Of a stretch of DNA of 64,000 bases, positions 28,669 to 30,843 are shown piece by piece (the stretch's first letter is position 1; every line of letters begins with the position of its first letter). Source of the DNA: Bradyrhizobium sp. 170 (GTDB taxonomy: Bacteria; Pseudomonadota; Alphaproteobacteria; Rhizobiales; Xanthobacteraceae). The stretch is taken from assembly GCF_023101085.1 (NCBI RefSeq), contig NZ_CP064703.1, forward strand, positions 5,890,001-5,954,000. The letters run 5' to 3'. The position numbers and the translations under genes were made by a program. The notes below the pieces were generated by a model that made no database searches, was not told the origin of the DNA, and worked only from the letters and a program-made list of their open reading frames with translations.

Positions 28669-28743
28669 ACGCCGTTGTTGCGACTTTCTTGCCTCGCGAG
28701 GAATGGGCGTAAGCCCAGGGGAAGAAAGTCACATTAACGGCGT
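28669..28743 (-). ncRNA. Nested hairpin leader element 1 (upstream of DUF736)
   Basis: On the plus strand: outer arms ACGCCGTT (28669-28676) and AACGGCGT (28736-28743), then five unpaired bases on each side, then GACTTTCTT (28682-28690) with AAGAAAGTC (28722-28730). A tip hairpin TGGGC-GTAA-GCCCA (28704-28717) lies inside. The linker GCCTCGCGAGGAA lies before the tip and GGGG after it. The element is preceded by TCAGCGGAGG. The element at 30769-30843 has the same plan and linkers with different stem sequences. Because DUF736 lies downstream on the minus strand, a minus-strand leader RNA is the likeliest form. The rest of 28558-28983 holds no recognised gene. Confidence 0.65.
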
Positions 28744-28983
28744 TGCGGCTCAGACGATCGAGGCGTAGCCGGTCTTCGGCCAGATCAAGCCATCAAAGAG
28801 GCCACGTGGGTCCGCGTGCTGAACCGCAATCTCGGAAGAAGACTTGGCGAATCTCGGTTGAGCTGCACAAGAGGTTGGTATGGTTCGGCGCAGAAAGAGA
28901 AACAATCCGCCGCAAAGGGCGGTATCGTCCCGGAAGGAATGATCGAGCGCGGCGCGCCGCGCGATCGCAGCAATGTGGACCAG

Positions 28984-29097
28984 GCGGAGATTGGGGCTTG
29001 GTCAAAGCGCTCCGACGAAAAGCGGGGTTACCTCTCCCCCGAGCTCGATCACTCCTCGGTCAACGTGGCGCCCTGTGCGACCTTGCCCGACCGATAA
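28984..29097 (+). pseudogene. DUF736 remnant on the opposite strand
   Basis: The plus-strand frame reads AEIGAWSKRSDEKRGYLSPELDHSS followed by a degenerate end. It aligns with [26 protein letters not shown] of the intact DUF736 protein at 28237-28557. Only the C-terminal third remains and the last residues diverge. This is a broken inverted copy, probably left by an old duplication within the element. Confidence 0.65.
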
Positions 29098-29241
29098 TGG
29101 CGACGAAGCGTCATCGCTCATGCGTGGCTGCTGTGAGCACCGGTCGAGGCATGTTCTCCGCCACCCCGGCCGATTCCAACGGGCGGGTCTCCGCGAAAAC
29201 GGTCAAGCGCGTCCATGCTGTGCCTCCAATGCAAACCGCAC

Positions 29242-29727
29242 CTAGGCAAGCGAAGGCCTCACGCCAAGGAGCGAAGGCACCCCGATCTGCGACAGGGCGA
29301 ACATCATATGATAGCCAGCGATAGCCGCAGGGACGGCGAATGCGGTTGCGATTACGATGCGCAAGGTCCGGGAGCGACTGACCGCGACGGCGACCTGACC
29401 GACAGCAAGCGTCAGTGCGCCGGAGGCCAATCCGACCAGCAGCGCGCCGACGACGCCGGCGCAGCCATGAAACGCCAACATCCCGACGCTGAGTGCGACG
29501 AAAAACGGCAACGCAGAGACCGCCAGCGCAAAAATCAGCCAGCAGAACAAACCGATACCAAGTGTGTTGAGGACAAGCCCAAGGGCAAGCATGGCGGTGG
29601 CTCCAATGCATAGATGTACTGGTCGCGCCTTCCACCACCACCGCGGCGCGGCTTCGGAAGTAGTATCGAAACGAGGCGGAGTTGCGGCGTGCAACTCCGT
29701 CCTGGAGGCGAGCAAGACGGCGCTCAC
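29242..29727 (-). CDS. Hypothetical membrane protein
   Basis: 161 residues with a soluble N-terminus ending WWWKARPVH and then three or four hydrophobic helices (about 42-60, 62-82, 88-115 and 118-145). The start is probably the GTG at 29727, which overlaps the DUF2493 stop by four bases (translational coupling). I recognise no family. The co-transcribed neighbours suggest an ICE maintenance or transfer accessory role. Confidence 0.65.
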   Translation of the reverse strand: MSAVLLASRTELHAATPPRFDTTSEAAPRWWWKARPVHLCIGATAMLALGLVLNTLGIGLFCWLIFALAVSALPFFVALSVGMLAFHGCAGVVGALLVGLASGALTLAVGQVAVAVSRSRTLRIVIATAFAVPAAIAGYHMMFALSQIGVPSLLGVRPSLA

Positions 29728-30647
29728 GCGCCGCCGAACTTCCAGACGGGAATGCCCAGCCGCTTCGCCTTGTCGGCAAGGTTGTCCTGGATTCCGGTGC
29801 CCGGGAAATGCATGACGCCGATCGGTACGAGTTCGAGCATGGCATCGTTGCGCTTGAACGGCGCTGCCTTAGCGTGCTTGGCCCAGTCTGGCTTGAAGGC
29901 GATCTGTGGGACCTTCCGGGTGATCGCCCATTTGGACGCGATCAATTCGGCGCCCTTTGGCGAGCCGCCATGGATCAGGACCATGTCGGGATGCTTGGCG
30001 TGAACCTTGTCGAGGCGATCCCAGATCAGGTGATGGTCGTTGAAGTCGAGGCCGCCGGTGAGTGCGATCTTCGGCCCCGGTGGCAACAGGACCTCAGTCT
30101 CGGCGCGGCGCTTGGCGGCGATAAAGTCTCGGGAGTCGATCATTGCCGCGGTAAGCGTACGATGGTCGACAAGTGAGCCGGATCGCGGGCGCCAGGACGA
30201 ACCGGTGTGGACTTCATACTGCTCGATGGCCTGATCGCGGAAGAGTTCCAGGCAGTTGCGGCGCTCGATCAGTGTGATGCCTTCGGCCGTCAGGCGCTCG
30301 AGTTCGACCGATCGCACCTCCGAGCCATTCTGCTCGCGCTGGCTCTTGCGTTGAGCTTGTTCGTTGTCATCGAGTTGGCGATTAATTCGGTCCGCGGCAC
30401 GGTGGAACAGGTTGACGGTCGACCAGAGCAAATCGCTAAGGTCCGGCTCGAGCTGGGTGTCGCTCAAGGTGGCAACCAAAGCGTCGAAGATATCGGCGAC
30501 GGCGCCGGCGATCATCTTGCCCTCGGGAAGAGGTCTCGGATCTGGCTCATCGTCAAATGGACGGTAGCCGAAGAGCTGCAATTCGCTGAGAACGTGGTCG
30601 CTCGGAGAGGTGGCGTGCGGCGGTTCGATGTCGTCATGGTCGGTCAT
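29724..30647 (-). CDS. DUF2493 domain-containing protein (SLOG-like fold)
   Basis: 307 residues. The N-terminal half is helical and acidic (LSELQLFGYRPFDDEPDPRPLPEG; LVATLSDTQLEPDLSDLLWSTVNLFHRAADRINRQLDD, in two parts). The C-terminal half is the DUF2493/YspA-like SLOG domain: KIALTGGLDFNDHHLIWDRLDKV, VLIHGGSPKGAELIASKWA and MLELVPIGVMHFPGTG. SLOG domains bind nucleotide-derived ligands. The DUF2493 protein is a standard ICE passenger beside toprim and ParB genes. A nested hairpin leader lies about 120 bases upstream. Confidence 0.88.
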   Translation of the reverse strand: MTDHDDIEPPHATSPSDHVLSELQLFGYRPFDDEPDPRPLPEGKMIAGAVADIFDALVATLSDTQLEPDLSDLLWSTVNLFHRAADRINRQLDDNEQAQRKSQREQNGSEVRSVELERLTAEGITLIERRNCLELFRDQAIEQYEVHTGSSWRPRSGSLVDHRTLTAAMIDSRDFIAAKRRAETEVLLPPGPKIALTGGLDFNDHHLIWDRLDKVHAKHPDMVLIHGGSPKGAELIASKWAITRKVPQIAFKPDWAKHAKAAPFKRNDAMLELVPIGVMHFPGTGIQDNLADKAKRLGIPVWKFGGA

Positions 30648-30768
30648 GGGAGGAGGTCCTTTGCCGGATCGGCCGCGCCCATCGCGGCCTTCGTGGCGAT
30701 CACTCAGGCGGCGGGCGGAGCGGGGCCAGAACCCGGAGCAGCGCGGAGGGCCGAAGCGTCAGCGGAGG

Positions 30769-30843
30769 ATGGCGAAGGCCGGCTATTTTGCTTCGCGATG
30801 CAAAGGCCCGAAGGGCCGGCGGAAAATAGCCGGACGCAGCCAT
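30769..30843 (-). ncRNA. Nested hairpin leader element 2 (upstream of DUF2493)
   Basis: Outer arms ATGGC (30769-30773) and GCCAT (30839-30843) are followed by five unpaired bases on each side. Inside are CCGGCTATTTT (30779-30789) with AAAATAGCCGG (30823-30833), then a tip hairpin GGCCC-GAA-GGGCC (30805-30817). The linkers GCTTCGCGATGCAAA and GGCGG match those of element 1 at 28669-28743, as does the preceding TCAGCGGAGG, while the stems differ completely yet still pair. It occupies the 304-bp gap between DUF2493 and toprim genes, which holds no other gene. Confidence 0.65.

Follow-up and report, generated by a model that had tools for sequence, protein, structure and literature searches.

What are two hairpins of one architecture doing directly upstream of a DUF736 gene and a DUF2493 gene in Bradyrhizobium sp. 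170? The locus lies in a 64,000-nucleotide stretch of assembly GCF_023101085.1 (contig NZ_CP064703.1, positions 5,890,001 to 5,954,000 of the forward strand), hereafter the window, within an integrative and conjugative element (ICE). An initial annotation had proposed either a structured leader RNA or a protein-binding cruciform shared by an ICE regulon. Its observation is confirmed in part and its interpretation supported in part: the structure is there, but a leader RNA is not what the data favour. Instead, the functional unit is probably a domain of about 250 nt on the probable transferred strand, and not the 75-nt tip that was noticed at first.

Both hairpins are present in the window, with arms at 28669-28693/28719-28743 and 30769-30789/30823-30843, and they rank as the top two of 19 inverted repeats between 20000 and 50000 with at most 90 nt between copies. 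As the initial annotation had it, they follow one plan of a 5+5 internal loop, a TCGCGA linker and a tip hairpin, and both carry the exact 11-base flank TCAGCGGAGGA, which reads CCTCCGC on the mRNA strand. The hairpins had been placed 110-125 bases ahead of minus-strand genes, and the measured distances to the start codons are 111 nt (DUF736) and 121 nt (DUF2493). That the stem bases differ almost completely was an overstatement, as the inner stems aligned from the loop are identical at six of nine bases, the three differing pairs all being compensated. The extent of the feature was also underestimated. While the tip is real at both places, alignments of non-redundant upstream regions (41 for DUF736 and 52 for DUF2493) contain a nested series of helices running from just above the ribosome-binding site to ~265 nt upstream, and each copy measures ~250 nt (Table 1).

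Relatives were collected via DUF2493 (80 loci) and DUF736 (found in 54 of 100 genomes; 30 loci). In 18 aligned cores, the two window copies included, 95.1% of cells pair, both-sided changes occur at 11 of 16 pairs and the covariation score is 0.430 compared to 0.159 in shuffles, with none of 500 shuffles reaching any of these values. Sliding the partner by 1-3 columns left 35-56% paired. Of the five measures, only the count of further pair types did not rise above the shuffles (15 versus a mean of 15.6). All five hold on 60 distinct model-match rows, an alignment fitted to the structure and including two opposite-strand rows, the weakest again being pair types (reached by 9 of 500 shuffles). 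The hairpin structure is under selection, its helices being kept by compensatory change, as had been proposed from the two copies. Folding statistics add to this for the first copy, with z-scores against shuffles of -5.8 for the core alone on either strand and -7.2 for full-length element 1 folded as plus-strand DNA.

A covariance model built from the 18 cores (R1) matched copy 1 at 97.7 bits and copy 2 at 85.9 bits, both copies being part of its training set; beyond these, the window gave only copy 1 matched in mirror orientation and weak hits of at most 17.4 bits. At E ≤ 0.001 the model found matches in 58 of 149 genomes at family level, 22 of 289 at class level and 30 of 299 at phylum level (the window's own genome being counted in each tally), and three of the 30 phylum genomes fall outside Alphaproteobacteria. 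The own genome (9.2 Mb) holds seven copies, six of them paired ~2.1 kb apart. This search was the check by which the earlier interpretation was to stand or fall, and further copies do exist: in 62 of 65 examined matches a DUF736 (40) or DUF2493 (22) gene lies ≤260 nt downstream. Two of the remaining three are also followed by DUF736, one by blastp (L186) and one by eye at a contig end (L170), and the last (L182:1501) has a different small gene downstream. The CCTCCGC flank occurs in 157 of 174 unique upstream regions (DUF736, 85/99; DUF2493, 72/75), and both element types retain TCGCG in the linker. The same hairpin fronts DUF736 and DUF2493 (YspA-like) genes in many Alphaproteobacteria, on ICEs and plasmids alike, and it predates this window. 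It belongs to no named family in Rfam, which gave no match at gathering threshold across the whole window, in line with the initial annotation. Acido-Lenti-1 (RF01687) matched part of copy 2, and of that copy only, below that threshold (30.1 bits, E 0.00034, gathering 37); a GC-rich hairpin probably fits it by chance.

Selection on structure does not tell which strand folds. One transition is enough to convert a Watson-Crick pair to G-U or A-C, and selection on an RNA keeps G-U; since A-C on one strand is a G-T wobble on the opposite strand, the ratio of the two reports on the strand under selection. As a control, RNase P read on its own strand gave G-U:A-C = 113:14 in 23 non-redundant of 30 loci from related genomes, and 58:9 events after tree correction across all 30 loci. 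The core stems of the present elements, read as mRNA, gave 9:50 in 96 distinct stem sets (DUF736-type 6:36, DUF2493-type 2:12, one other core 1:2) and 8:40 in a smaller sample of 85 core sets. In this count three of the 16 pairs (the first outer and the last two inner) were dictated by the pattern used for searching, and cores lacking TCGCG, CC.C or a near-complete stem were left out; the cut-off counted only Watson-Crick pairs, so that G-U and A-C were treated alike. The core ratio of 9:50 is too skewed for mutation bias alone. For the full DUF2493 element, tree events in pairs common to both folds gave 47:92 (p ~1e-5), a result that stands because its unpaired columns are without mutation bias (317:350). 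Full-length DUF736 cells before tree correction gave 183:279. By these sequence counts the core prefers the strand opposite the mRNA, that is, the template strand of DUF736 and DUF2493. Folded as DNA, the + strand also has the lower predicted minimum free energy in 40 of 41 sequences of the DUF736 type and 40 of 52 of the DUF2493 type.

The strand that folds can be set against the direction of conjugative transfer. Because the gene order resembles that of ICEMlSymR7A, we place a putative oriT (origin of transfer) in the gap between traF and the relaxase gene, toward which both DUF736 and DUF2493 point. In ICEMlSymR7A an rdfS-traF operon lies upstream of oriT and rlxS (PMC11963761). The gap contains a conserved block of which 9 of 21 positions are identical in at least 39 of 41 rows, the window included, and the other positions vary. 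Within it, CCCTTG^CC on the + strand is what we take to be a possible nic site, by loose resemblance to MOBP nic sites. If the nic reading is right, the + strand would be transferred, and DUF736 and DUF2493 would be read from it, the same strand whose fold is selected; gene order likewise makes the + strand probably the transferred one. Among the 80 DUF2493 loci, the relaxase gene lies on the DUF2493 strand, 4.8-9.7 kb downstream, in all 41 where it was found, and in all five plasmids examined it shares a strand with the elements.

The element also occurs at the ends of insertions. In two loci (L006, 7540-12952; L230, 2999-9781) an insertion carrying three recombinase genes side by side has split DUF736 near codon 50-60, with both pieces seen, and in a third (L229, 8838-11326) only the 3' piece of DUF736 is present, beside recombinase remnants. 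Both insertion ends in these three loci carry the hairpin element and a divergent DUF736 facing outward, forming inverted repeats of 763 bp (100%, L229), 689 bp (99.7%, L230) and ~700 bp (78%, L006). One-sided or partial versions were found in L231 (the own genome, G000:C1 ~2.225-2.232 Mb), L232 and L234 (5371-8794). Six proteins from L006, L230 and L231 were tested, and all belong to the phage-integrase family of recombinases. The three adjacent genes of this family in L006, with homologues in L230, L231 and L234, resemble recombinase in trio (RIT) elements (PMC3414803, PMC10214605), a label given here by gene arrangement, without a RIT-specific model. The text available from those reports describes 34-bp terminal inverted repeats and does not mention DUF736, whereas the present insertions carry a DUF736 paralogue and the hairpin element. 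This arrangement suggests that the hairpin element and DUF736 may move as one unit, and that, with copies facing outward, a given strand would offer one readable copy whichever orientation the insertion has.

A known system combines several of these properties. Frpo and ssi of F and ColIb-P9 are long imperfect hairpins on the template strand of leading-region genes, present in more than one copy per mobile element, each before a gene block (PMC11541004, PMC9849209). Frpo2 of F folds as a single long imperfect hairpin, and we find the corresponding long, stable, imperfect hairpin directly before genes that are leading-region genes as judged by gene order. In F, as in the window, two copies stand ahead of two leading-gene blocks (PMC9849209). 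The leading genes of F face oriT and are transcribed off the transferred strand, and those under Frpo are expressed early in recipients (PMC9849209, PMC11541004). With oriT placed in the traF-relaxase gap, the window has the geometry of F, in which leading genes, oriT, relaxase and transfer genes share one direction. In a test with F, an anti-CRISPR gene under Frpo in the leading region raised transfer into defended cells ~225-fold (PMC11541004). We applied the strand test to a control of Frpo1, Frpo2 and 11 relatives, using raw counts without tree or bias correction. Read on the mRNA strand, G-U:A-C was 8:15 in distinct variant types (5:12 in pairs common to both folds) and 22:33 in cells (13:18 in common pairs); the consensus energy was -284 on the non-mRNA strand versus -254. 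The direction of Frpo matches that of the present elements and is opposite to that of RNase P: in both, fold and wobble favour the non-mRNA strand.

With slightly better than even confidence, we read each element as a Frpo-like initiation site on single-stranded DNA (ssDNA), within the leading region of an ICE. In the donor the element would be ordinary duplex and inert. On transfer as a single strand, the + strand, the template of DUF736 and DUF2493, would fold into a ~250-nt hairpin mimicking a duplex, at which RNA polymerase or primase could start an mRNA, a primer or both. DUF736 and DUF2493, which follow right after the hairpin base, would then be made before a second strand exists. That the + strand is transferred, that a polymerase uses the hairpin and that early expression is its purpose are three steps we infer. 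There are also differences from Frpo and ssi. The hosts are alphaproteobacterial elements of the RlxS/trb type and not enterobacterial plasmids, from which Frpo-type promoters are known (PMC11541004); the genes are DUF736 and DUF2493 in place of ssb, psiB and ygeAB; and the present elements have a common core with a TCGCG linker and the CCTCCGC flank, with no detected sequence similarity to Frpo and no recognised -35/-10 boxes.

Several observations weigh against the Frpo-like account. Copy 2 is weak by itself, both as a core (z -1.4 sense, -2.8 on the plus strand) and as the full-length window copy of element 2 (z -1.7), and the case thus rests on comparison among homologues. The 96 stem sets behind the core ratio are not phylogenetically independent, and full-length DUF2493 cells before tree correction are nearly even (203:189). 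For the full DUF736 element, 62:93 tree events in pairs common to both folds are fully explained by the mutation bias of its unpaired columns, where changes in the A-C direction exceed the other 350:232, so that it is the core stems and the DUF2493 element that carry the strand claim. The Frpo control comprises 13 close sequences, a small sample. R1 had no match up to E 10 in the 46-70 kb region of the F plasmid that holds both Frpo copies, although no BLAST against all known Frpo and ssi sequences was made. Finally, -35/-10 boxes were not recognised in the elements by a scan that finds none clear in Frpo either (a score of 9 of 12 is reached in one of 13 sequences, and there on the opposite strand), and the promoter step is the least supported part of the account.

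The main rival holds that the + strand is transcribed into a structured RNA, antisense or regulatory, spanning the 5' region of both the DUF736 and the DUF2493 gene. It predicts the same strand preference, and the core on the + strand indeed prefers G-U by 50:9, its 9:50 on the mRNA strand being roughly the inverse of the 113:14 of RNase P. However, no promoter-like site was found on either strand in 28200-31000, by a weak scan that misses the Frpo boxes too; the direction is the same in Frpo, which is known to act as ssDNA; and the 47:92 of the full-length DUF2493 element is milder than RNase P. We consider such an RNA unlikely. If each gene's mRNA began with a structured leader, whether riboswitch-like or protein-binding, the covariation would be explained, and the compensatory helix change expected of such a leader is found. 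The similar upstream distance before two gene families and the z of -5.8 for copy 1 on the mRNA strand would also fit. Set against the 58:9 of the RNase P control, G-U is nonetheless not tolerated over A-C on the mRNA strand, neither in the core counts (8:40, 9:50) nor in the full-length events (62:93, 47:92), and a match at the Rfam gathering threshold is lacking; this first proposal of the initial annotation is very improbable.

Its second proposal, the cruciform, belongs with a wider class of double-stranded features, including an operator bound by an ICE regulator, with the palindromic TCGCGA linker as one candidate site. The linker TCGCG is kept in both types and several regulators are encoded near the elements, and the full DUF736 element taken alone is compatible with a cruciform or a double-strand operator. 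Such features predict no strand preference, yet one is present in both the core (9:50) and the full DUF2493 element (47:92), and the stem sequences change with pairing kept, unlike an operator that is read by sequence; we hold a double-stranded feature to be distinctly unlikely. All the strand evidence would be equally well accommodated by an ssDNA site that only primes second-strand synthesis, for instance by the Toprim/DUF7146 protein whose gene adjoins element 2, and that has no promoter function. A position ~100 nt before the start codon in two gene families and the joint movement of element and DUF736 in insertions point to gene expression instead, and there is little chance that priming is the sole function.

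The surrounding region of the window is an ICE backbone whose listed genes (Table 1) are all on the minus strand, except for a small helix-turn-helix (HTH) gene (27946-28173, +). It resembles the backbone of ICEMlSymR7A and Tn4371-type ICEs in its rdfS, traF, rlxS, trb and DUF736 genes, the last being msi110 there (PMC8627217). DUF736 genes were reported on all elements of one Mesorhizobium survey, often duplicated, and the text of that report on oriT, rlxS, the DUF genes and the leading region describes no structured element upstream of DUF736 (PMC8627217). The relaxase scores 565 bits against NCBIfam relax_RlxS, below the cut-off of 850. The DUF736 protein is predicted by AlphaFold2 to adopt a small all-beta fold (mean predicted local distance difference test score, pLDDT, 90.8) with no clear solved relative. 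The stem at 28907-28922, one of three terminator-like sites in the region (1.9 expected from shuffles), could insulate DUF736 against upstream transcription.

Table 1 Features of the window, with elements 1 and 2 and their genomic surroundings
Feature	Position	Strand	Basis
Element 1, full nested imperfect hairpin, DUF736 type	28577..28823	+	Consensus helices from 41 non-redundant homologues, placed on window coordinates
Element 1 core hairpin (outer stem, 5+5 internal loop, A/T-rich inner stem, TCGCGA linker, tip hairpin)	28669..28743	+	Inverted repeat I1; model R1 match; covariation
Element 2, full nested imperfect hairpin, DUF2493 type	30653..30915	+	Consensus helices of 52 non-redundant homologues
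Element 2 core hairpin	30769..30843	+	Inverted repeat I2; model R1 match
Conserved flank TCAGCGGAGGA, exact	28659..28669 and 30759..30769	+	11 bases 5' of each hairpin
Terminator-like stem with U-rich tail, upstream of element 1	28907..28922	-	Partly conserved in DUF736 upstream alignment
trb genes and TraG	7.6-19 kb	-	
RlxS-type relaxase (DUF3363), downstream of both elements	21567..23321	-	Pfam DUF3363 E 2e-85
Conserved block between traF and relaxase, likely oriT core (by inference)	23469..23489	+	41 aligned rows
TraF, DUF2840, RepA, RdfS-like HTH, DUF2285/DUF6499 frames, between relaxase and DUF736		-	
DUF736 gene, 106 aa	28237..28557	-	Pfam DUF736 E 2.3e-34
DUF2493 / YspA-like SLOG-family gene, 307 aa	29724..30647	-	Pfam YAcAr E 1.1e-29
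Toprim/DUF7146, upstream of element 2	30952-32016	-	Pfam/NCBIfam
Strawberry-notch helicase	32013-36419	-	Pfam/NCBIfam
ParB-like	36531-38708	-	Pfam/NCBIfam

Some further features of this backbone were seen in passing. Adjoining the RepA gene, 25155-25217 holds three iteron-like 16-nt direct repeats at a spacing of 23-24 nt. The DUF6499-like and two DUF2285-like frames at 26532-27751 resemble a split fseA (msi172-msi171), which has been reported to be translated by programmed frameshifting (PMC11963761). Direct repeats of ~86-108 nt in 2-3 copies lie at 39774-39898, 43122-43246 and 44183-44308, two of them containing TATCCTG on the minus strand. The order of the Toprim, strawberry-notch and ParB-like genes is similar in three annotated plasmids (L207, L208 and L209). 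There the interval between DUF2493 and DUF736 has varied cargo, including DNA polymerase IV, HigA/RelE-type genes and an Abi-family gene, often in opposite orientation, and the insert of the window is smaller.

Taken together as a single proposal, a new and widespread family of ssDNA promoters or initiation sites, for which no sequence kinship with Frpo was detected, would drive the first genes, DUF736 and DUF2493, of alphaproteobacterial ICEs and plasmids of the trb/RlxS type, relatives of symbiosis islands among them, and would be carried by recombinase-trio elements that land in DUF736 with outward-facing inverted replacement copies, one of which could be read from the incoming strand in whatever orientation they insert. 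We advance this joint reading tentatively, at somewhat less than even confidence. The G-U/A-C count offers a cheap way, from an alignment only, to tell a folded RNA from ssDNA on the other strand. If the proposal is true, ssDNA promoters would also serve ICEs and plasmids of Alphaproteobacteria, including relatives of rhizobial symbiosis islands, and would mark their early genes, and DUF736, a protein without known function, would become a candidate for the first-expressed protein.

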